In this document: positions 10,551-21,176 of the stretch, piece after piece
How positions within the stretch are numbered: the first letter of the stretch is position 1
Layout: each line of letters starts with the position of its first letter
Assembly (NCBI RefSeq): GCF_030734285.1
Contig: NZ_CP132294.1
Location: forward strand, 2,852,001 to 2,916,000
Direction: 5' to 3'
DNA: 64,000 bases
Source: Natronococcus sp. AD-5
GTDB lineage: Archaea > Halobacteriota > Halobacteria > Halobacteriales > Natrialbaceae
Notes under the pieces: model-generated
What the model was told of the DNA's origin: nothing
What the model saw: the letters and a program-made list of their open reading frames with translations, nothing else
Databases searched by the model: none
Made by a program: the position numbers and the translations under genes

Positions 10551-12152
10551 CTAGAGCCCCTCGCGTCCGCCCTGCGAGAGGAGGACGACCATCGAGAGTC
10601 CGGAGACGAAGAGCAGGATCAGCGCGGGGATCGCGGCATACTGAAAGTAGGCGGCCTCCTGGGCGCGCCAGATGATCGTGACGAGCGTTTCGAAGCCGGT
10701 CGGACGGAGGATCAGGGTCGCCGGAAGCTCCTTCATCGTCGTCAGGAACACGAGCGCCGCGCCGGCGGTTATCCCCGGCGCGATGAGCGGAAGCGTGATC
10801 GACCGAAACGTGCGAAGCGGCGTCTCTCCCAGCGTGCGCGCGGCCTCGACGAGTCGCGGATCGACCTGCAGGGTCGTCGTCCGGATCGATCCGACCGCTT
10901 GCGGCATGAACCGAACGACGTAGGCGAACACCAGCAGCGGGATCGTCTGGTAGACCATCGGCGCGTAGCCCGCGCCGAAGTAGACGAGCGCGAGCGCCAG
11001 GACGATCCCCGGGACGGCGAAGCCGACGTACGTCGCCCGTTCGACGAGTCCCGCCAGCGGCGAGTCGTGTCTAGCCGCGAAGTACGCGACCGGCAGCGCC
11101 GCGAGCACGGCGACGGCCGCGGCGGCGGCGGCGACCGTCACGGAGTTTACCGCGTAGTCGAGCTCGAACGCGAGCGACGGTCGCGCGTCCGGATCGGCGG
11201 TCACGAGCCAGAGGCCGAGGATCCACAGCGGGACGACCAGCGACAGGCCCACGACCGACGCCGGTAGCGCCGTCGCCGGCCAGCGCCAGACGCCGAGCTC
11301 GATGACGGGGTCGGCCGACCCGGCCGAGCCGTCGCCGCGGACCGTCTCGTCGGGTCTGGCCCACCACTCGAGCGCCAACACGACGAGGACGATCGCGAGC
11401 AGCTGCAGGGAGAGAAACGCCGCGTAGTCCTGCCCCCAGGCGTTGTACTCGACGTAGATCTGCCGGGTGAACACCGGTAACTGCATGATCGCGGGCGTTC
11501 CGAAGTCCGAAACGGCGTACAGCGCCGCGAGCAGCGCGCCGGCGACGATCGCCGGACGGACCTGCGGGAGCGTCACCCGACGGAACGCCCCCCACTTGCC
11601 GTGGTTGAGCGTTCGGGCGGCGTCGAGGAGCGTGGTATCGAACGAGAGGAGCGCCGCGCGGGTCGTGAGGTAGACGTAGGGGTACGTATAGAGCGTAATG
11701 ACCAGCGTCGTGCCGGGAAGCCCGTAAATCTCCGGCAACCGCTCGATGCCGAGCGGCTGAAGGACGGACTGGAACTCGCCGCGGGGACCGAACGCGGAGA
11801 CGAACGCGAACGCGCCGATGTAGCTCGGAACCACGAGCGGGAGGGCGACGACGACCGACCAGAAGCGCCGGAGCGGGAGGTCCGTCTGGACGGTCAACCA
11901 CGCCAGCGGAACGCCGATCAGCACCGACAGGACGGTCACCGCCGTCATCAACAGGAGGCTGTTGCCGACGACCTCCGCCGTCTCCGGGCGAACGAGCATC
12001 CCTCGCGCGCGATCGAGATTCACCCGCGCCGCTTCGAGTACGAGCCACGAGAGGGGAAACAGCATACTCGCGGCGATCGCGCCGGACAAAAGCGCCAGGT
12101 CCAGCGGTACGTCGTCTCCGACGAACCGCCGAAGCGGAGCGGTAGATTTCAT
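10551..12152 (-). CDS. Fe(III)-type ABC transporter permease (fused double permease)
   Basis: The 533-residue protein has about 12 membrane segments and two tandem binding-protein-dependent permease domains, as in FbpB/FutB/SfuB. Each half carries an EAA loop for contact with the ATPase: DAARTLNHGKWGAFRRVTLPQVRP near residues 190-215 and EAARTLGETPLRTFRSITLPLIAP near 435-460. It is divergent from the gluconate-dehydrogenase-like pair, and the iron-box palindrome at 12255-12268 lies in the shared upstream region. The likely partner binding protein is at 17592-18719. No ATP-binding subunit is encoded in this window. Thiamine permease (ThiP) has a similar architecture, so substrate assignment rests on the binding protein and operators. 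Confidence 0.82.
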   Translation of the reverse strand: MKSTAPLRRFVGDDVPLDLALLSGAIAASMLFPLSWLVLEAARVNLDRARGMLVRPETAEVVGNSLLLMTAVTVLSVLIGVPLAWLTVQTDLPLRRFWSVVVALPLVVPSYIGAFAFVSAFGPRGEFQSVLQPLGIERLPEIYGLPGTTLVITLYTYPYVYLTTRAALLSFDTTLLDAARTLNHGKWGAFRRVTLPQVRPAIVAGALLAALYAVSDFGTPAIMQLPVFTRQIYVEYNAWGQDYAAFLSLQLLAIVLVVLALEWWARPDETVRGDGSAGSADPVIELGVWRWPATALPASVVGLSLVVPLWILGLWLVTADPDARPSLAFELDYAVNSVTVAAAAAAVAVLAALPVAYFAARHDSPLAGLVERATYVGFAVPGIVLALALVYFGAGYAPMVYQTIPLLVFAYVVRFMPQAVGSIRTTTLQVDPRLVEAARTLGETPLRTFRSITLPLIAPGITAGAALVFLTTMKELPATLILRPTGFETLVTIIWRAQEAAYFQYAAIPALILLFVSGLSMVVLLSQGGREGL

Positions 12153-12254: not shown

Positions 12255-12268
12255 TTAGGTTTACCTAA
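12255..12268. promoter_or_regulatory. DtxR/IdeR-like iron box 1
   Basis: The palindrome TTAGGT-TT-ACCTAA has six perfect pairs per arm. It begins just after a TATA-like TATAAGG (12247-12253) and ends nine bases before ATG 12278. It therefore covers the expected transcription start, as a repressor site would. The core equals the TTAGGYNNRCCTAA heart of the DtxR/IdeR consensus. Confidence 0.75.
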
Positions 12269-12277
12269 TCCGCTCGC

Positions 12278-12805
12278 ATGGAGTTGACCAGGCGAGACGC
12301 GGTCGCCGCGCTGGCGGCGCTCGGCGCGGGTGGCGCGGTCGCGACCGGTCTCCGGCGATCCGATCGACGGGGGACGGACGCCGCGGTCGACGACGAGCAC
12401 CTTCGCGAGACGCTGATCGCCGCGGCCGAGGTCGTCTACCCCGACCGTGTAACCGGAACGGCGACGTTCGTCGAGGCGTTTCTCGAGGGACGACTGGAGA
12501 ACCCCGACCACGTAGACGGCCTGCGCGAGGCGGTCGCCGACCTCGAGCGGCTGTCGGAGGAGTGGTACGGCGACGCCGTCTCCGAACTGTCGCCGGCCGA
12601 GCGCGACTCGCTGTTGCGCGACGTCGGAGCGGATACCGCCGACGAGGATCCCGACGGAACGACCGCGGAGCGGGTGCGTTACTACGTCGTTAACGAGTTG
12701 CTGCTGGCGCTGTACGCGTCGCCGACGGGCGGCGAACTGGTCGGCATCGAGAACCCGCAGGGCCACGCGGGCGGAATCGACACCTACCAGCGGGGGCCGC
12801 AGTGA
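12278..12805 (+). CDS. Gluconate 2-dehydrogenase subunit 3-like Tat protein
   Basis: The 175-residue protein has a Tat-type N-terminus (LTRRDAVAALAALGAGGAVATG). A helical domain of the gluconate 2-dehydrogenase subunit 3 family follows, with the landmarks AAAEVVYPDRVTGTATFVEAFLEGRL and YYVVNELLLALYASPTGGELVGIENPQGHAGG. In bacteria this small subunit escorts and exports the GMC flavoprotein. The next gene is exactly such a flavoprotein and overlaps by four bases, so the two should form one complex at the cell surface. It is directly controlled by iron box 1. No cytochrome c subunit is nearby. Confidence 0.85.
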   Translation: MELTRRDAVAALAALGAGGAVATGLRRSDRRGTDAAVDDEHLRETLIAAAEVVYPDRVTGTATFVEAFLEGRLENPDHVDGLREAVADLERLSEEWYGDAVSELSPAERDSLLRDVGADTADEDPDGTTAERVRYYVVNELLLALYASPTGGELVGIENPQGHAGGIDTYQRGPQ

Positions 12806-14433
12806 GTTCCGAACGCCCGCCCGCCGAGGGACCGGAACCCGTCGACGGCGCCGATCGGGCGCCGATCGAGGACGCCGACGTCTGCGTTATCGGGGCGGGA
12901 CCGGCCGGCGGACTGATCGCGGATCGACTGGCTCGCGCCGACAAGCGGGTGGTCGTGCTCGAGGCGGGGCCGCGGTTCGATCCCGCCGACCGGCTCGCGC
13001 GCCAGGAACGGGCGATCCGCCCCGCCTACGATCGGCCGGACGTCTGGGACGGCGATCCCGAGCGGGACGACCACGCCGCGAGCGGCGAGCGGTTCTACCC
13101 GCTCAACCACGCCCGGGTGAAGGGCGTCGGCGGCTCGACGCTGCACTGGCAGGGGATGGTGATGCGACTCCACGAGGACGACTTCAACTCACGGAGTGCC
13201 CGCGGCGTCGGCGACGACTGGCCGATCGACTACGAGGATCTGCGACCGTACTACGCGGAGGCGGAGCGCGAACTCGGCGTCGCCGGCGCCGACGACAATC
13301 CCTTCGCGCCGCCCCGCGAGGAGCCCCATCCGATGCCCGCGTTCCCGCCCTCGTACAGCGACGGGCTGTTCGCAGAAGCCTGCGAGACCCTCGAGATCGC
13401 GATGCACTCGGTGCCGAACGCGCGCAACTCGGAGCGCTACGACGATCGCAGCGCCTGCGTCGGGTACGGCACCTGCCAGCCCGTCTGTCCGTCCGGCGCG
13501 AAGTACGACGCGACCGTCCACGTCGAGCGCGCCGAGCGCAGGGGCGCGACGGTGATCGATCGCGCGCCCGTCCAGCGGCTCGAGCACGGCCCCGACGCGA
13601 TCGAGGCCGCCGTCTACGCCACCCCCGACGACGAGGAACACCGCCAGGCGGCGGACGCCTTCGTCGTCGCCTGCGGCGGCGTCGAGACGCCGCGGCTCCT
13701 CCTCCTGTCGGACTCGCGTCACTACCCCGACGGGCTGGCCAACTCGAGCGGGCTCGTCGGGAGCTTCTTCATGGACCACCTGTTCGCGGGGATGGGCGGC
13801 GTGCTCGACGAACCGACCCGACAGAACCACGTCGGCTTTCTCACCAGCGAGTGTCACCAGTTCTACGACGAGGCCGACGAGGACGTCGGCCCGTTCAAAC
13901 TCGAGTTTTTCAACTACGACGGACCCTCACCGGTCGAGACGGCGCTGTCGGGGGACGACTGGGGCGACGACCTCCTCGAGCGTCTCCGGACGGAGTACGG
14001 CAACCACATCGGGATGGGCGCGCTGATCGAACAGCTCCCCCGCGAGGAGAGCTACGTCGCGCTCGATCCAGAGCGCACGGACGATCGCGGAAACCCCGTT
14101 CCCGACGTTCACTGGACGGTCGACGACCGCGCGCGCCGGACGATCGAGCGGGCGAACGAGATCCAGCGCGAGATTCTCGACGAACTCGGCGCCGAACGCA
14201 CCTGGGAAGTCGGCCCCGACGACACCGGGCCGGCGTACCACCACATGGGGACGACCCGGATGGGCGACGACCCGACCGAGAGCGTCGTCGATTCGCGCCT
14301 GCGAACGCACGACCTCGAGAACTGCTGGATCGCCTCGAGCAGCGTCTTTCCGACCGGCGGCGCGATGAACCCGACGCTGACGATCGCCGCGCTCGCGCTG
14401 AAGGCCGCGGATCACGTTCTCGAGGCGCTGTGA
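12802..14433 (+). CDS. GMC family flavin oxidoreductase (gluconate dehydrogenase large-subunit type)
   Basis: The 543-residue protein begins with GTG at 12802, overlapping the preceding stop. The FAD-binding VIGAGPAGGLIADRLA and VVVLEAG lie at about 30-55, and the second FAD contact GVGGSTLHWQGM near 112. The C-terminal catalytic block is YHHMGTTRMGDDP near 477-489, with AMNPTLTIAALAL near 520-532. A cysteine cluster (CVGYGTCQPVCPSG, about 219-232) resembles that of sugar-acid and long-chain alcohol dehydrogenases of this family. It lacks its own signal and would be carried out by the Tat-tagged small subunit. The substrate is unknown. Its iron-box control and glycosyltransferase neighbours suggest a sugar or glycan substrate, by inference. 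Confidence 0.88.
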   Translation: MSSERPPAEGPEPVDGADRAPIEDADVCVIGAGPAGGLIADRLARADKRVVVLEAGPRFDPADRLARQERAIRPAYDRPDVWDGDPERDDHAASGERFYPLNHARVKGVGGSTLHWQGMVMRLHEDDFNSRSARGVGDDWPIDYEDLRPYYAEAERELGVAGADDNPFAPPREEPHPMPAFPPSYSDGLFAEACETLEIAMHSVPNARNSERYDDRSACVGYGTCQPVCPSGAKYDATVHVERAERRGATVIDRAPVQRLEHGPDAIEAAVYATPDDEEHRQAADAFVVACGGVETPRLLLLSDSRHYPDGLANSSGLVGSFFMDHLFAGMGGVLDEPTRQNHVGFLTSECHQFYDEADEDVGPFKLEFFNYDGPSPVETALSGDDWGDDLLERLRTEYGNHIGMGALIEQLPREESYVALDPERTDDRGNPVPDVHWTVDDRARRTIERANEIQREILDELGAERTWEVGPDDTGPAYHHMGTTRMGDDPTESVVDSRLRTHDLENCWIASSSVFPTGGAMNPTLTIAALALKAADHVLEAL

Positions 14434-14449: not shown

Positions 14450-14463
14450 TTAGGCGAACCTAA
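14450..14463. promoter_or_regulatory. DtxR/IdeR-like iron box 2
   Basis: TTAGGC-GA-ACCTAA, flanked by further T and A so the arms extend outward. It sits immediately upstream of and touching the TATA-like AAAATATAAG (14463-14472), over the BRE/TFB site of the glycosyltransferase promoter (ATG at 14497). Confidence 0.75.
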
Positions 14464-14496: not shown

Positions 14497-15255
14497 ATGG
14501 GTCACGCCGACGGGCGCGTCGGAGACGGCGCGGACGACACCGAGACCGCGGGCGGCGATCGGGACGCTGACGGCGACGCGTACACGTTCGAGGACGTCAG
14601 CGTCGTGATGGGAACGTACAACGAGGAGGAAGCGATCGGCAAGGTGCTCTCGGACGTCGAGGCGGTCACCGACGGAAACGCCGAGGTCGTCTGCGTCGAC
14701 GGCTCTTCGGATCGCACGCCGGAGATCGCCCGCGAACGCGGTGCGACGGTTATCGAACAGCGACCGCAGGGGTACGGCGTCGCCGTGCGCGCGGCGATCC
14801 TCGAACCGAATCGACCGATCGTCGTCACCACCGACTGCGACGACACCTACCCGATGGAGCAGCTTCCGGAGTTCCTCGAATGGCTCAACGAGGGCTACGA
14901 CGTCGTCAGCGGCGATCGCCTCTACCACGGCGCCGACGCGATGCCGGCGTTCAATCGGTTCGGCAATCGCGCGTTCGCCGCGGTCGCGAGCGTCCTGATG
15001 GGTACCCGCGTCCACGACACGACGACGGGGATGCGCGCGTACCGCCGCGAGGTCGTCGAGTCGATCCGCTGGACCGAGAACACCGGCCTCTCGGCGGAAC
15101 TGCTGATCCGCCCGCTGATGCGGGGGTACGAGGTCCGCGAACACCCGATCGAGTACCGCGAGCGCGCCGGCGAGACCAAACTCGACCCGATCGAGGGCGG
15201 CGCCGCCATCGCGAAGTCGATCGTCAAAGTTTGTCTCGAGGAGCGGTTCCGGTGA
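14497..15255 (+). CDS. GT2 glycosyltransferase, dolichyl-phosphate hexose synthase type
   Basis: The 252-residue protein has the GT-A fold of DPM1-like enzymes. These load a sugar from a nucleotide donor onto dolichyl phosphate at the inner membrane face. Motifs are VVMGTYNEEEAIGKVL, VCVDGSSDRTPEIAR, RPQGYGVAVRAAI and the acidic DCDDTYP near 110-116. The acceptor-side GMRAYRREVVESI and EHPIEYRERAGETKLDP complete the family pattern. There are no C-terminal membrane helices. An acidic N-terminal extension of about 28 residues is typical of halophiles. Its own iron box suggests induction with the neighbouring genes. It faces the PMT-like gene, which would be a logical user of its lipid-linked product. 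Confidence 0.85.
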   Translation: MGHADGRVGDGADDTETAGGDRDADGDAYTFEDVSVVMGTYNEEEAIGKVLSDVEAVTDGNAEVVCVDGSSDRTPEIARERGATVIEQRPQGYGVAVRAAILEPNRPIVVTTDCDDTYPMEQLPEFLEWLNEGYDVVSGDRLYHGADAMPAFNRFGNRAFAAVASVLMGTRVHDTTTGMRAYRREVVESIRWTENTGLSAELLIRPLMRGYEVREHPIEYRERAGETKLDPIEGGAAIAKSIVKVCLEERFR

Positions 15256-15368: not shown

Positions 15369-17576
15369 TCAGCGCTCCGCCTCGAGTCGGGTCTCGAAGT
15401 CGACCCACTCCGGGCGGGTATCAGGTCGATCGGGAAGGTAGGTTCCCTCGGTGCCGCAGTCGGCGACCAGCGGGCAGGCCGTCCGTTCCGGCGGCCAGAC
15501 GACCTCGATCCCGTCTCCGGTCGTCCGAACGGTCACCGCCTGTCGGTACGTGAACGTCCCGCCGTCGGACTGAATCAGCGTGATCTCCAGGACGAACTCG
15601 TCGGTCGGGGCGAGGGCAACCGTCGCGTCCCCTCCGGCCGTCAGCCGCGCGGTCCCGCCGCTCCCGTTCTCGGCGTCGGCACCGGGCTCGAGCGCCCACT
15701 CGACCGCGATTCGGTCCTCGGGATCGCCGATGCGGCTGGTGGCCGCCGCGCCGCTTTCGTTCTCGAGTCGAACCGTCGCCCGGTCGACTCGCCCGGGAAC
15801 GCCGACGGCGGTCTCGCCGTCGAACGACTCGCCCTCGCGCACGCTCAGGGGTTCGAGCGTCGGGATGACGGGATCGTCGGGAGCGGCCGTCCACTGGCCG
15901 CGGTACGCGTAGCGGTAGTGGGTCCGATCGGGGTAGGCGGCGAGCACCGCGAAGTCCCGACCGGGAGGGCCGTCGAGCGCGTAGACGACCTCCCCGTCGA
16001 AGCCGGGGTCGTTTCGGAGCGACTGGAAGGGGTGGTTCTGCCACTGACCGTACGGCGTCGGCAGGAACACGAGCGCGTTCTCGAGGTCCCGCTCTTCGAA
16101 CGGTTCGTAAGCCGACTCGAACCGATCGGTGTCCGCCGCGTTGCGCTCGATCGGCGTCGAGAGGAGCGCGGCGTTAGCCGCGCCGACCACGAGGAGGCTT
16201 GCGACGAGCACCGCGAGCGCGAGGCGTCGAGCCCTCGCCGGCGACCCGCAAGCGGCTAGCCGCTTGCGGGTCGCGTCGTCGCGAAGCCGCCGCCAACCGG
16301 TCACGAGCCCGAACGCGGCGAAGATCGACAGCGGCGCGAGTGCGTCGAAGTGATAGAACGGACCGAACAGGGAGAGCAGTCCGTTCGTCGGATCGTCCAT
16401 CGTCGCGAGGACGTTGAAGTTCCCCCAGAACGCGAGGTTGCCCAGCGGAACGGCGACCAGCAGGCCTGCCAAGAGGAGCCCCCCCGTCCGGCCCTCGGCC
16501 GTCGCTCCGTCGACTCTCGGATCGAGGGGGCGCCACCGCCGAAGGGCGAAGCCGAGTCCCGCGAGCGCGGCGACCGTCCCGATCGGTCCCGCGGTGAACC
16601 AGCGGGTCGCGAAGTACCACAGGACGTAGCCGTTGGCCTCGAGGGCGAGCGTCGGCGTGTACTCGATCGAGTGGCTGAGGATCTCTCGGCGTCCGAAGCC
16701 GAGCCCGTCGCGGGGCGCGAACGCCTCGTACGGGAAGACCAGGGGTGAGCCGGTGAGCCGGGCGTTGTACGCGAGCGCGAGGACGACGAACCCCAGCCCC
16801 ACGGCGGCGGTGAGCGCGTTTCGTCGAACCGGATCGGGAACCGGTCGGACGCCACGCGCCCGCCGCCGTCGGACCGATCGGAGGGCCGTCCAGAGGGCGT
16901 GGCAGACGAACGGCGCCGCGAACAGGACGGCGGTGTACGGGCGGGCGAAAAAGGCCAGGCCGATCGCCGCACCCGCCAGCGCCGCATCCCGGAGGCGCCC
17001 GTTTCGGACGCCGCGCAGGTACAGGATCGCGAAACAGAGGTTCAATAGCGTCGTCGGCGCGTACGGCAGGAACACCGACGAAGTGAGCAGCGCGAGCGGC
17101 GAGGCCGCGAAGACGGCCGCGGCGACGACGCCGATCCGCCGGTCGAAGACCATGGCTCCGAGTACGTACACCAGGGCGGCGTTCCCCGCCGCGACGGCCG
17201 CCAGGGCGACGCGCGGCTCGCCGACCAGCGCCATCGACGCGGCGAACACCGCCGCCGGAACCGGCGAGTACTTCGGGTAGAGCCGCCCCCCGTCCTCGAC
17301 GAAGAACCACGGCCGAAACGCGCCGGCGAGATCGCCCGCGTGGAGCTCGAGTTGCCCCTCGAGCAGCGTGGCCGCCTGCGTGAGATAGACGGCTTCGTCG
17401 TTGTTACTCGAGTGGTACGGAAACAGCTGCGTTGCGATCGCAAACACGGCGACGCCCGCGAGCGCGGCGACGCAGAGCGCGTACAGGTGCTCTCGCTCGG
17501 CGCCGTCGCGGACGCGGACACGCAGACGTCGGAACGGGGGCGACGGGGAGCGTCGGCGAAGCGGATCGAGGATCAC
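15369..17576 (-). CDS. PMT/ArnT-like integral membrane glycosyltransferase
   Basis: The 735-residue protein has about ten membrane helices in residues 30-480 and an exposed C-terminal domain of about 250 residues. The pattern after helix 1, YHSSNNDEAVYLTQAATLLEG, is the luminal loop with the acidic residue used by GT39/GT83 enzymes. It is followed by YPKYSPVPAAVFA and PYTAVLFAAPFV. Such enzymes transfer sugars from dolichyl phosphate to proteins or lipids outside the membrane. It starts 15 bases after the binding-protein stop, so the two share an iron-box-controlled transcript. A perfect 34-base palindrome interrupts the region coding for a cytoplasmic loop near residues 435-446. Confidence 0.75.
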   Translation of the reverse strand: MILDPLRRRSPSPPFRRLRVRVRDGAEREHLYALCVAALAGVAVFAIATQLFPYHSSNNDEAVYLTQAATLLEGQLELHAGDLAGAFRPWFFVEDGGRLYPKYSPVPAAVFAASMALVGEPRVALAAVAAGNAALVYVLGAMVFDRRIGVVAAAVFAASPLALLTSSVFLPYAPTTLLNLCFAILYLRGVRNGRLRDAALAGAAIGLAFFARPYTAVLFAAPFVCHALWTALRSVRRRRARGVRPVPDPVRRNALTAAVGLGFVVLALAYNARLTGSPLVFPYEAFAPRDGLGFGRREILSHSIEYTPTLALEANGYVLWYFATRWFTAGPIGTVAALAGLGFALRRWRPLDPRVDGATAEGRTGGLLLAGLLVAVPLGNLAFWGNFNVLATMDDPTNGLLSLFGPFYHFDALAPLSIFAAFGLVTGWRRLRDDATRKRLAACGSPARARRLALAVLVASLLVVGAANAALLSTPIERNAADTDRFESAYEPFEERDLENALVFLPTPYGQWQNHPFQSLRNDPGFDGEVVYALDGPPGRDFAVLAAYPDRTHYRYAYRGQWTAAPDDPVIPTLEPLSVREGESFDGETAVGVPGRVDRATVRLENESGAAATSRIGDPEDRIAVEWALEPGADAENGSGGTARLTAGGDATVALAPTDEFVLEITLIQSDGGTFTYRQAVTVRTTGDGIEVVWPPERTACPLVADCGTEGTYLPDRPDTRPEWVDFETRLEAER
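16241..16274. repeat. Perfect 34-base palindrome inside the membrane glycosyltransferase gene
   Basis: Fifteen-base arms (16241-16255 and 16260-16274) flank the centre CTAG, and every position pairs. It encodes part of the loop TRKRLAACGS and is in frame. The core arm word GCAAGCG...CGCTTGC recurs in a hairpin at 33343-33361. It may be an inserted palindromic repeat. Confidence 0.8.
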
Positions 17577-17591
17577 GGCGGCGGACGCCGA

Positions 17592-18719
17592 TCAGGTATC
17601 GATGCCGACCTCGCGCATGAGGTCGATCGTCGGCTCGAGGTCGGACAGCTCGGCCAGGTCGAGGCTCGGAACGTCGAGTTCGTCGATCGTCGGCAGATCG
17701 CCGACCGGCTCGACGCCGGAGATCAGCGGGTACTCGAACGTCGTGGTGGCGAAGTACTCCTGGGCCTGCGCCGAGAGCAGGTGCCGGACGAAGTTCTCCG
17801 CGAGCTCCGGATCGTCCGCGGCGTCCGTGACGGCCGCACCGGCGACGTCGAACGCCGCGCCCGCATCGCCCTCGGTGAACGAGGTGGCGATCGGCGCGTC
17901 GGACGAGCCGTCGCGGACGCGCTCGACGTAGTAGTGGTTCGTGAATCCGGCGTCGACCTCGCCGTCCGCGATCGCCTGACAGACCGCGAACTCGTCCGGG
18001 TAGTCGGTGATCCCCGAGGCGACGACGCCCTCGAGCCACTCGCGGGTGGCGTCGTCGCCCTCGAGCAGCCGCATCGCGGTGACGAACGCCTGACAGGAGC
18101 CGTACGAGGGGGCCCAGCCGAGGTCGCCGTCGAAGCCGGTCGCGTAGGCGTCGATGTCGTCGGGCATGTCGTCGTCCGAGAGCGCGTTCGTGTTGTACGG
18201 AACCGTCCGAGCGCGCCCGGACGTTCCGATCCAGTGGTCGGTCCGGAACTCCTCGCGAACCATCTCCAGGACGCCGTCGGAGAGTTCCCGAGTGCGACCC
18301 TCGTCCGCGAGCGCGCCGAGCGCGCCGGCGTCGACGGTGTAAAACACGTCGGCCGACGTTCCCGATCCTTCCTCCTCGATCTGGTTGACGAGGTCCGCGG
18401 AGTCGCCGTAGCGGGGATCGATCGAGAAGTCGTCGTAGTACGCCTCGAGATCGTCGATGAGCGTTCCGACGAGGAACTCGCCGCGGCCCGAGTAGACGGT
18501 GAGCTCACCCTCGAGGTCCGGCATCTCTTCGACCGGCGTTCCGCCGGGTTCGGGCCGTCCTTCGCGGCCGGAACCGATCTGACCGAAGACGGAACCCCCG
18601 TCCCCCTCGTCCTCACCGCCGCCGATCAGCCCGGTACAGCCCGCCAGCGCCGCCGCACCGAGCGCGGCCGAACCGACGAGAAATCCCCGGCGATCCGCCG
18701 AGCCGGTCTGTCGAGTCAT
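17592..18719 (-). CDS. Fe(III)-type ABC substrate-binding lipoprotein
   Basis: The 375-residue protein has a Tat lipoprotein signal (DRRGFLVGSAALGAAALAGC, lipobox Cys near residue 28) and an acidic linker. The fold is that of the FutA/FbpA class of periplasmic-binding-protein type II (ELTVYSGRGEFLVGTLIDDLEAYY, DVFYTVDAGALGALADEGR, FTNHYYVERV). FbpA-type proteins use paired tyrosines to hold Fe(III); NHYYVERV carries such a Tyr pair. The iron box at 18725-18738 is between the TATA-like CTATAAG and this start. The permease at 10551-12152 is the probable partner, although it is separated by five genes. Confidence 0.87.
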   Translation of the reverse strand: MTRQTGSADRRGFLVGSAALGAAALAGCTGLIGGGEDEGDGGSVFGQIGSGREGRPEPGGTPVEEMPDLEGELTVYSGRGEFLVGTLIDDLEAYYDDFSIDPRYGDSADLVNQIEEEGSGTSADVFYTVDAGALGALADEGRTRELSDGVLEMVREEFRTDHWIGTSGRARTVPYNTNALSDDDMPDDIDAYATGFDGDLGWAPSYGSCQAFVTAMRLLEGDDATREWLEGVVASGITDYPDEFAVCQAIADGEVDAGFTNHYYVERVRDGSSDAPIATSFTEGDAGAAFDVAGAAVTDAADDPELAENFVRHLLSAQAQEYFATTTFEYPLISGVEPVGDLPTIDELDVPSLDLAELSDLEPTIDLMREVGIDT

Positions 18720-18724
18720 GTTTT

Positions 18725-18738
18725 TTAGGCTTACCTAA
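18725..18738. promoter_or_regulatory. DtxR/IdeR-like iron box 3
   Basis: TTAGGC-TT-ACCTAA, with outer T/A extension. On the minus strand it lies between TATA-like CTATAAGTT (about 18742-18750) and the ATG at 18719, covering the start of transcription of the binding-protein operon. It also abuts the 3' end of the gene at 18740. Confidence 0.78.
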
Positions 18739-18739
18739 A

Positions 18740-19960
18740 TTAACTTATAGCCGTCGATTCGGCACGGGGAGCGGTCCGCTCGAGCGCGTCGAGGCAGGCG
18801 AGCCAATCGAGCATGTGCTCGCCGACGTGGTTGAAGAAGCCGCCGTTGGTGTAGTCCGACCAGTCGCTGTCGGCGAGTTTCCGCGCCACCGCCTCGAAAA
18901 CCTCGGCGTAGGCGTCCGCGTCTCCGCCGACGACCTCGGGCGGCTCTGCCGTCCGAGCGGCCCGCGGAGCCTCCGGTTCCACGCCGTCGATCACGCGCCA
19001 GAGGTGCTCGTTGAGTTCGAGACCGGACACCTCGTTGTTGAGATCGTCGAACGTGCTTCGCGGGGCCTTGTTGTGTTCGCACAGCGGCGCGCCGTTGTAG
19101 ATCCGCTTGCCGAGCACGTCGCAAGCGCGCTTCAGGAAGACGCCGCTCCAGATGTCGTCGAACCGGCCGACGTCCCACTCGTTGTCGTCCATCGGGAGCT
19201 GGTAGAACGCGGGAATCACCTCGCGGCGGAAGGCGAGGTTCATCGAGCAGACGGTGAGGTAGTTGCCCCGCGCGGCGACGAAGTCGTCGGCGAAGTCCTC
19301 GCGGCTCGTGCGGGTCTGGGCCTGTCCCTCGAGGTCACCGTCCATGAGGATTCGGACGGCGTCCAGGTCGGGGACGTTGGTCCAGAGACCCTGGGAAGCG
19401 ACGACCTCGCCGGCTTCGATCTCGGCCGTGCCGGTCTCGACGGTTTCGTCCATCGCGGAGTAGGGGTACCCCCGCGGGTACAGCCCGTGCTCGTCGGCGT
19501 TCTGGTAGAGAACGTTCACCCACCGCTCGTCGGAGGCGACCTCCTCGATCTCGCCCTCGAACGCGAGGTTCGCCACGTGCGTGCCGAAGAAGTCCTCGCC
19601 TTCGTGCGGAAGCGTGTCGTCGTCGATGAAGAAGCCGTACTCGAACTCCTCGTGGGCCCACATGTAGAGCAGTCCGAAGCTCGTCTCGGCGTGGCTCGCC
19701 GCCGGCACGACGTGACCGTACTCCGCGACGCCGCGGTCGGCGTACCACCGCTCGCGGCGAGTCCCGTCGAAAACGTCGCCGGAGACGCCCTCCTCCTCGA
19801 GCATCGCCGCCATCGCGTCGGTCTCGCAGAAATCCTCGGTGACGAGCACGACGTGGAGTCGCGAGAGGTCGAAGCCGTGTTCGCGCGCGTTCGCGAAGTA
19901 CGACCGCAGGCACTCGTACTCCCGTATCGTCGGGACGACGACGCAGATGTCCTGGCTCAT
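18740..19960 (-). CDS. GT75/reversibly glycosylated polypeptide-like glycosyltransferase
   Basis: The 406-residue cytoplasmic protein matches the RGP/UDP-arabinopyranose mutase family in its core order: CVVVPTIREYECLRSY at the N-terminus, FFIDDDTLP near 130 (the DxD-type metal site), RGYPYSAMDETV near 163-175, SQGLWTNVPDLDAVRILMDGD near 190-210, and SMNLAFRREVIPAFYQLPM then RFDDIWSGVFLKRACDVLG near 240-280. Plant members interconvert UDP-arabinose ring forms, and others are self-glycosylating. Archaeal members are little studied. The C-terminal 100 residues are an extra domain. Its upstream iron box is embedded in the end of the flippase gene, which suggests both shared and separate control. 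Confidence 0.78.
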   Translation of the reverse strand: MSQDICVVVPTIREYECLRSYFANAREHGFDLSRLHVVLVTEDFCETDAMAAMLEEEGVSGDVFDGTRRERWYADRGVAEYGHVVPAASHAETSFGLLYMWAHEEFEYGFFIDDDTLPHEGEDFFGTHVANLAFEGEIEEVASDERWVNVLYQNADEHGLYPRGYPYSAMDETVETGTAEIEAGEVVASQGLWTNVPDLDAVRILMDGDLEGQAQTRTSREDFADDFVAARGNYLTVCSMNLAFRREVIPAFYQLPMDDNEWDVGRFDDIWSGVFLKRACDVLGKRIYNGAPLCEHNKAPRSTFDDLNNEVSGLELNEHLWRVIDGVEPEAPRAARTAEPPEVVGGDADAYAEVFEAVARKLADSDWSDYTNGGFFNHVGEHMLDWLACLDALERTAPRAESTAIS

Positions 19961-19966
19961 TGGTCG

Positions 19967-21151
19967 CTATTTTTTAGGTCCGCCTAAAAAATTGGCGGTA
20001 TCGGTTTCGGTCGCCGATCGCGATCCCTCCGTCGCGGTCGACGGGGAGACGCCGAGCGATGCGACCGCCCCGGCGCCGCCGATCAGCGTCACCCCGTTTT
20101 TCAGCGCGTGGTCGACGATGGCGGCCGCAAACGCCGTACTCGCGCCGACGGGAGAGAGGCCGACGATCAGCGCCGCGAACGCGGCCTCGTAGAGCCCGAC
20201 GCCGCCCTGCGAGAGCGGAAGGACCTTCGCGAGGTTCCCGACGCTCACGGCGAGGGTCCCGATCGCCAGCAGCGTCCCGGCCGGTAGCCCGCTGTCGATC
20301 GCCGCGAGAACGAGCACCGCGGTGAGCACGTCGAGCGTCCACACCGCCAGGCTCGCGCCGCCGATCGCGACGAGCGCTCGCGGTCGACGCGCGACGACTC
20401 GAACGTCCGCCGCAAACTGGAGGGGGGGCTCGAGCGCGCGCTCGAGTCGCGGCGAGCCGTCGGCGCGCGTCCGGAGCCGCGCACCGAGACCGTAGTTCGA
20501 TCGGGCCGACGTCACGACGACGATCGCGACGCCGAGCGTCGCCGCGCTTACGGTGGCCGCAGCGGCGAGTGCGGTTCGCGCTCCCGCGGTCTCCGCACCG
20601 ACCTCGAGCGGATCGGTATCGCCCCCGAGCGCAACCCACGCCATCGCGGCGCCCGCGAGCGCGGCGAGCGCCGCCAGGTCGAAAACGCGCTCGACGGTCA
20701 ACGAGGCGAATCCCGACGCGTAGGGGACGTCTTCGTAGACGTTGACGACGTACGCACGCGCCGCATCACCCGCTCGAGCGGGGATCGCGAGGTTCGCCGT
20801 CTGGCTGACGAACACGGCCATCGTGAGCAGCGCCGTTCCGCCAGGGTGGCCGATCGACCGGAGGATCGATCCGTACCGGCGACCCCGAACCGGCCACGAG
20901 ACGGCGTAGACGGCGACCGCGGCGGCGAGTACGAGGGGATCGGCGGTTGCGACGTCGTCGGCGACCGCGCCGACGTCGATCTCTCGCGCCGCGACGACCA
21001 GACCGAGAACCGCGAGCGCCGTCCCCGCGAGCGTTAGTCGACGTCGCGTCGAACGCGCGGTGAATCCGCCGCTCGTCGCTCCGCCCTCGGCGCAGGACGA
21101 CGGCGGCTGGTCGCCGTCCCCTCGCGGGGTCGATCGCTCGCGGCCGTTCAT
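19967..21151 (-). CDS. UPF0104/lysylphosphatidylglycerol-synthase-TM-type membrane protein
   Basis: The 394-residue protein has eight or more membrane helices with family landmarks: SWPVRGRRYGSILRSIG, FVSQTANLAIPARAGDAARAYVV, SLTVERVFDLAALAALA and VSVGNLAKVLPLSQGGVGLYEAAFA. Haloarchaeal relatives (AglD/AglR-type C-terminal regions) are linked to translocation or handling of dolichol-linked sugars. ATG 21151 is chosen because a TATA-like CTTAAATATT lies about 25 bases upstream. The last codons (FLGGPKK then stop) are themselves written by the palindromic iron box of the next gene. The stop is seven bases from the next start, so it is probably also co-transcribed with that gene. Confidence 0.8.
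   Translation of the reverse strand: MNGRERSTPRGDGDQPPSSCAEGGATSGGFTARSTRRRLTLAGTALAVLGLVVAAREIDVGAVADDVATADPLVLAAAVAVYAVSWPVRGRRYGSILRSIGHPGGTALLTMAVFVSQTANLAIPARAGDAARAYVVNVYEDVPYASGFASLTVERVFDLAALAALAGAAMAWVALGGDTDPLEVGAETAGARTALAAAATVSAATLGVAIVVVTSARSNYGLGARLRTRADGSPRLERALEPPLQFAADVRVVARRPRALVAIGGASLAVWTLDVLTAVLVLAAIDSGLPAGTLLAIGTLAVSVGNLAKVLPLSQGGVGLYEAAFAALIVGLSPVGASTAFAAAIVDHALKNGVTLIGGAGAVASLGVSPSTATEGSRSATETDTANFLGGPKK
19974..19987. promoter_or_regulatory. DtxR/IdeR-like iron box 4, inside a coding 3' end
   Basis: TTAGGT-CC-GCCTAA, the most extended copy: nine-base arms at 19970-19978 and 19983-19991. It lies about 14-27 bases upstream of the GT75-like start (19960) and within the final codons of the flippase gene. 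Confidence 0.72.
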
Positions 21152-21176
21152 ACGGGAAGCCTTCCATCCCAAATAT

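Follow-up and report, generated by a model that had tools for sequence, protein, structure and literature searches.

Gene content of the locus

The window analysed here is a stretch of 64,000 nucleotides from the Natronococcus sp. AD-5 genome (contig NZ_CP132294.1), and the part of it between positions 10551 and 21172 is occupied by a gene module. The module comprises genes for a GT75 protein, an FbpA-type protein, an ABC permease, an ATPase, a GT-C transferase, a dolichyl-phosphate hexose transferase and a GMC oxidase with its Tat-signal subunit. The GT75/RGP-family gene (18740-19960, reverse strand) encodes 406 amino acids, and the product is predicted to be an NDP-pyranose mutase from its match to PF03214, its MtdL-like fold and its invariant catalytic residues. 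Directly upstream, as in many other loci, lies the gene for a UPF0104/LPG_synthase_TM flippase-like membrane protein (19967-21172, reverse strand; PF03706, E = 9.8e-40).

The adjoining gene (17592-18719, reverse strand) encodes a solute-binding lipoprotein (SBP) with a twin-arginine start and the iron-ligand motif FTNHYY. Its best solved match was the Fe3+-binding SBP 7w3w (E = 1.3e-59), about 25-28 iron-binding structures being matched, and the protein is, judged by this homology and by its paired tyrosines, an FbpA-type ferric-binding protein. It is followed by a PMT/GT39-like GT-C membrane glycosyltransferase (15369-17576, reverse strand; PF13231, E = 3.9e-8), which has the same phyletic pattern as GT75. 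The C-terminal domain of the GT-C protein, DUF7846 (PF25230, E = 1.6e-51), is functionally uncharacterised and may determine which acceptor or sugar the pathway uses.

On the forward strand are encoded a GT2 dolichyl-phosphate hexose transferase (14497-15255; NCBIfam equivalog NF041391, 409 bits against a cut-off of 375), a GMC-family FAD sugar/alcohol oxidoreductase (12802-14433; PF05199, E = 3.6e-26; PF00732, E = 7e-11) and its partner, a gluconate 2-dehydrogenase subunit 3-like protein (12278-12805; PF13618, E = 1.7e-9) that starts with the twin-arginine signal MELTRRDAVAALAALGAGG. A fused, FbpB-like ABC permease (10551-12152, reverse strand; two PF00528 matches, E = 1.1e-28), whose orthologues carry the annotation 'iron ABC transporter permease', completes the module in the window. 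The FbpC-type ATPase is encoded elsewhere in the same genome (L138; G000:C1:503461-504633), is preceded by one of the palindromic boxes described below and shares 70-74% identity with the ATPases that other genera encode within the cluster.

In 80 named loci, which represent about 25 genera, the GT75 gene almost always adjoins the SBP gene, and genes for the permease, ATPase, GT-C protein, hexose transferase, GMC oxidase and subunit 3 recur nearby in several arrangements; the ATPase gene of the present genome and the oxidase gene of some genomes lie outside the cluster. The pairing of GT75 and SBP was found in all 11 haloarchaeal families sampled. On the Salarchaeum plasmid pJOR178 the genes form one same-strand run in the order GT75, SBP, iron permease, ATPase, GT39, subunit 3, GMC and hexose transferase. 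A GalE-like epimerase gene lies just upstream in many Natrinema-type loci; this SDR was discarded as a diagnostic co-inherited gene, an orthologue being present in 234 of 234 genomes of the class. The FAD-type UDP-galactopyranose mutase (PF03275), an alternative source of furanose, was not found in the genome of the window.

Family assignment and predicted fold

Pfam RGP (PF03214) matched residues 4-391 of the protein with 67.9 bits (E = 1.1e-18; curated cut-off 23.8 bits), no second Pfam family was matched at E < 1 and no NCBIfam model matched. All 24 haloarchaeal orthologues sampled in a first alignment matched PF03214 as well, and a profile of the orthologues searched against the PDB retrieved MtdL (E = 7.3e-29) and rice UAM (8cid, E = 2.9e-7). 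The landmarks from which the first-pass annotation had recognised the family were located in the protein: GLWTNVPDLDA, claimed near residue 192, occupies residues 191-201, and the motif claimed near 241, MNLAFRREVIPAFYQLP, occupies residues 240-256. The DDD triad is also present, but at residues 113-115 and not near 130. Residue 163 is the arginine of a PRGYPY motif, and GRFDDIWSG and CEHNK occupy residues 265-273 and 294-298, respectively.

An AlphaFold2 model built from 36 window and locus sequences had a mean pLDDT of 76 and a pTM of 0.82, with low-confidence stretches at residues 145-172 and 195-218 that include the catalytic Arg163 and Asp198. The predicted model shows a GT-A fold with the GT75 core and a C-terminal helical domain. 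In a fold search it was superposed on MtdL over 336 residues (Z = 32.7; model residues 2-396 onto chain residues 5-376) and on rice UAM2 (8cid) with Z = 25.2, whereas the best unrelated GT-A enzymes following these reached only Z = 14, with which Foldseek concurred. Membership of GT75 is thus well supported by the Pfam match, the PDB profile match, the fold and an Arg/Asp/His active-site set that is intact in all 36 sequences; an unrelated GT-A family scoring higher and a missing Arg/Asp set had been named as grounds for rejecting it, and on each count the outcome favoured GT75.

The C-terminal 100 or so residues had been described as an extra domain. This description was dropped: the segment aligns with the C-terminal helices of MtdL in both the PDB profile alignment and the fold match, and because the model aligns to MtdL end to end, it is the ordinary GT75 helical domain. 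The PGAP name for this clade, 'alpha-1 4-glucan-protein synthase', is an automatic one that we judge misleading and that the present findings can replace. To our knowledge, GT75 enzymes have been characterised only from plants and from two antibiotic pathways. The remark that the family is best known from plants is fair, but the bacterial MtdL and Hyg20 are characterised members and archaeal entries were already counted within GT75 (PMC9937993).

Reaction centre and substrate-side residues

By sequence alignment, DDD109-111 of MtdL correspond to D113-115 of the haloarchaeal protein, R159 to R163, D195 to D198, S228 to S239, R257 to R266, D260 to D269 and H287 to H296, and each of these haloarchaeal residues is invariant in 36/36 sequences. 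In MtdL, Arg159 is the nucleophile and autoglycosylated position, Asp260 the proposed base and His287 a metal ligand, and mutase activity requires each of D109, R159, D195, R257 and D260 (Du et al., PMC9937993).

Four substrate-side positions are exchanged relative to MtdL, namely Asp87 to His90, Gln229 to Met240, Arg289 to Lys298 and His292 to Arg301, and the replacements are equally invariant (36/36). The plant residue at MtdL position 87 is Ser (PMC9937993), and the position of Met240 is also Met in plant-type RGP, as against Gln229 in MtdL. The plant-type specificity set, taken after PMC9937993 (Ser at MtdL position 87, Asp at 86 and Gly at 228), is absent, with His90, Ser89 and Ser239 in its place; likewise absent are the Asp87 and Gln229 of the MtdL/Hyg20 type, which are needed for activity and are represented by His90 and Met240 in all 36 sequences. 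The nucleobase region is distinct as well, with Pro10 and Ser89 and, from an ungapped comparison, Glu42 and Phe44. As the reaction centre is kept and the substrate-side residues are changed, the donor cannot be read from either known type, and the changed contact positions suggest that the donor, and even the reaction, could differ from those of the characterised GT75 types.

Palindromic iron-type boxes

The box is an exact palindrome, TTAGGNNNNCCTAA, of which the window holds four exact copies; shuffled window sequences gave none. The copy before the GT75 gene, TTAGGCGGACCTAA (19974-19987, reverse strand), is contained in the final codons (FLGGPKK-stop) of the UPF0104 gene upstream, and 76 of 80 orthologous loci have an exact box at this position. 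A second copy, just downstream of the TATA-like CTATAAG, precedes the SBP gene (18725-18738, reverse strand; exact in 73/79 orthologues), a third adjoins a TATA-like sequence before the hexose transferase gene (14450-14463, forward strand; 46/63) and a fourth lies between the divergent oxidase and permease genes (12255-12268; exact in 23/31 subunit 3 and 26/65 permease orthologues). In Haloferax-like genomes the box before GT75 is inexact and that before the SBP gene exact. A reversed control motif preceded none of the orthologous genes in the 80 loci. When these loci and the window were taken together, 285 of 302 exact boxes fell inside the module span, which makes up half of the sequence. 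The four central bases vary freely across loci, so the box is kept beyond mere conservation of the DNA.

The whole genome (5.17 Mb) contains 12 exact boxes. Besides the four in the GT75 module and the one before the FbpC-type ATPase gene, four surround the genes for a FecCD/Peripla_BP_2 siderophore transporter and a class-III aminotransferase; the palindrome thus also marks the promoters of recognised iron genes in this genome, as expected of a DtxR-type regulon. The earlier claim that the GT75 gene stands under an iron box is borne out far more strongly than it had been put, and co-regulation of the module through the boxes is well supported by the sequence comparisons. The boxes of the window touch TATA-like elements, at which a bound repressor would block transcription. 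One further genome box is flanked by genes for a Dps-type ferritin and a macro-domain protein (L139:2078-3665). Two others (L140:2962 and L141:2957), by a gene for a 97-residue protein without a Pfam match and between DUF7090 and methyltransferase genes, have no obvious iron function.

Archaeal DtxR-family iron regulons (FerR/Idr/SirR/TroR) likewise include iron-transport genes with a palindromic TTAGG-N4-CCTAA box close to the TATA element; the difference is that here the box also precedes nucleotide-sugar and glycosyl-transfer genes. In Haloferax volcanii, the fhu genes carry a 'ferR regulon signal', and iron starvation raised HVO_1859 (UPF0104) 11.6-fold and HVO_0655 (GalE family) 12.7-fold at the protein level (PMC11349517). 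Neither protein was retained as expression support: HVO_1859 is not visibly in the cluster, HVO_1861 being ThiL and HVO_1862 a protease, and the name of HVO_0655 does not establish its orthology.

Distribution and co-inheritance

A PF03214 match was present in 196 of 242 sampled genomes of the class Halobacteria, with H. volcanii among the named controls, and in 40 of 295 genomes in a survey of the phylum, all 40 belonging to the order of the window. The divergent GT75 clade is therefore a regular gene of this class, in a genetic setting that points to iron, and is very uniform, with a mean column identity of 74-77%. The GT-C protein was found in 191 of 234 class genomes; the listed genomes without GT75 also lacked it, save for one weak match (G120, E = 2e-4).

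Within the family of the window, orthologues of GT75, SBP, GMC and hexose transferase (bit thresholds for the last three: >325, >800 and >380, respectively) occurred in an identical set of 25 out of 61 genomes with no exceptions (Fisher p = 1e-17, relatedness ignored). Five genera are mixed for presence and absence of the set, and the unit has therefore been gained or lost repeatedly. The plasmid location of the whole iron/GT75 module in Halobaculum and Salarchaeum (L163 and L164) is consistent with repeated en bloc gain and loss. In at least four genomes (G239, G204, G214 and G215) the GMC gene lies on another contig or tens of kb to more than 100 kb away and still tracks GT75; this speaks for a functional connection in addition to linkage.

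Proposed role and alternatives

The explanation that we favour, and hold with roughly even confidence, is that an iron-repressed GT75 NDP-pyranose/furanose mutase provides the donor sugar from which a surface glycan with a function in ferric-iron uptake is built. GT75 membership, the intact catalytic set, the module, its boxes and its co-inheritance are established computationally, whereas we infer the mutase reaction, the direction of regulation and the order of the sugar steps as follows. When iron is scarce, a DtxR-type repressor would leave the TTAGGNNNNCCTAA boxes and derepress FbpABC together with GT75, the hexose transferase, the flippase-like protein, the GT-C transferase and the Tat-exported GMC oxidase. 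The cytoplasmic, Mn/Mg-dependent GT75 enzyme would then convert an NDP-pyranose to the NDP-furanose; following GT75 biochemistry, Arg163 would attack the anomeric carbon of the NDP-sugar to form a transient arginine-sugar bond, the ring opening and re-closing, with Asp269 as the base and Asp115 and His296 holding Mn or Mg. The gene content suggests that the sugar would be loaded on dolichyl phosphate, flipped and moved by the GT-C transferase onto a surface acceptor, and that the GMC oxidase, exported with its Tat-signal partner, would oxidise it outside the cell. From the co-inheritance with the FbpABC importer, the product may make Fe(III) available to the FbpA protein by capturing or mobilising it.

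The identity of the sugar, its acceptor and the manner in which the glycan would aid iron uptake are the least certain parts. The first-pass suggestion that the neighbours could use or provide an unusual pentose or hexose donor gains support from the sugar-transfer and iron-uptake genes around GT75, although which sugar this might be is conjectural. A more specific version, which we consider unlikely, is that iron-starved haloarchaea make a dedicated surface glycan, possibly with furanose and subsequently oxidised, that traps or reduces Fe(III) for FbpABC in a siderophore-like manner, with GT75 as the committed donor-making step. Several points count against the favoured explanation: the substrate-contacting residues differ from those of both known types, we know of no furanose in the N-glycans of H. 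volcanii, the ATPase gene and, for some genomes, that of the oxidase are found away from the cluster, and the box before GT75 is inexact in Haloferax-like genomes.

The module might instead be devoted to iron-regulated glycosylation of the surface, for example of the S-layer or of a lipoprotein, that has no direct role in iron binding and merely belongs to a surface co-induced by starvation. Terminal sugars in haloarchaea are transferred by the dolichyl-phosphate hexose transferase AglD and the GT-C transferase AglS, and the hexose transferase and GT-C protein of the module follow the same logic; the presence of a box before each sub-operon agrees with such co-induction too. We nevertheless place this reading on the improbable side, since the ferric-binding and sugar genes behave as one unit of gain and loss in 61/61 genomes, and joint gain and loss suggests joint function and not shared regulation only. 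It is very improbable that the boxes serve another metal or a general starvation regulator and that the FbpA-like protein binds something other than iron. DtxR-family regulators sense Fe or Mn and two of the genome boxes have no obvious iron gene, but the SBP matches about 28 solved iron-binding proteins and the same box precedes the siderophore transporter and the FbpC-type ATPase.

A further account keeps the GT75 fold and changes the chemistry, the protein being an arginine-autoglycosylating primer or an ordinary inverting glycosyltransferase and not a mutase. His90 replaces Asp87 of MtdL and Ser91 of AtRGP2, at which exchange abolishes mutase activity in both enzymes (PMC9937993), Lys298 and Arg301 lie in the diphosphate loop, the score to the RGP model is 68 bits as against 452 for a canonical haloarchaeal RGP, and AtRGP2 given UDP-glucose carries out transfer without mutase action (PMC9937993). 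Opposed to this are the nucleophile, general base, metal and beta-phosphate residues, all kept in 36/36 sequences, and the invariance of His90 itself, which suggests another substrate rather than decay. We regard altered chemistry as unlikely.

Relation to characterised systems

The closest characterised proteins are MtdL and Hyg20, bacterial GT75 GDP-L-fucose/L-galactose pyranose mutases. The haloarchaeal protein is about 21% identical to MtdL, and it has the fold in common with these enzymes including the C-terminal helices and keeps their DDD, catalytic Arg, two Asp, beta-phosphate Arg and metal His; their genes lie in an antibiotic cluster, whereas the haloarchaeal gene lies among iron-uptake and dolichyl-phosphate genes. 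Plant RGP/UDP-arabinopyranose mutases (OsUAM and AtRGP), which serve wall arabinofuranose, have in common with it the P-T-I-R start, Met at the Gln229 position and the autoglycosylated Arg position, but they are the poorer profile match (E = 3e-7 versus 7e-29) and are set apart by the haloarchaeal Ser239 and His90.

The SBP with its YY motif, the fused permease and the TOBE ATPase are features of FbpABC ferric transporters, the haloarchaeal version differing in its genetic tie to GT75 and to a dolichyl-phosphate/GT-C sugar pathway. That pathway in turn has the hexose transferase, the GT-C protein and a UPF0104-type membrane protein in common with AglD/AglS terminal-sugar transfer, but consists of box-controlled paralogues and adds a nucleotide-sugar mutase and an exported sugar oxidase. 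Across most of the class, nucleotide-sugar chemistry, dolichyl-phosphate glycosylation, sugar oxidation and ferric uptake are thus joined under one switch. This suggests a so far uncharacterised connection of iron uptake with the glycosylation of the cell surface. Searches of the literature for haloarchaeal RGP or 'glucan-protein synthase' returned nothing on archaea, and no description of a GT75 clade in an iron-box ferric-uptake/glycosylation module was found; archaeal DtxR regulon tables, which were outside the scope of the search, might list the genes. With the module in hand, the way in which haloarchaea obtain Fe(III) without a siderophore becomes testable; H. volcanii has the gene and is open to genetic manipulation.

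Other family members

Salarchaeum sp. JOR-1 carries, besides the divergent GT75 of its plasmid-borne iron module, a separate canonical RGP of the plant/bacteria type on the chromosome (L002/L153:9547-10527; 452 bits). The canonical gene lies outside any such iron cluster and near two distant GalE-like genes. A hypothetical protein encoded on a plasmid of Planctomyces sp. SH-PL62 (hit H9, NZ_CP011275.1:75128-75673) aligns to the central half of the haloarchaeal GT75 protein with 36% identity and is a possible bacterial relative of the clade.
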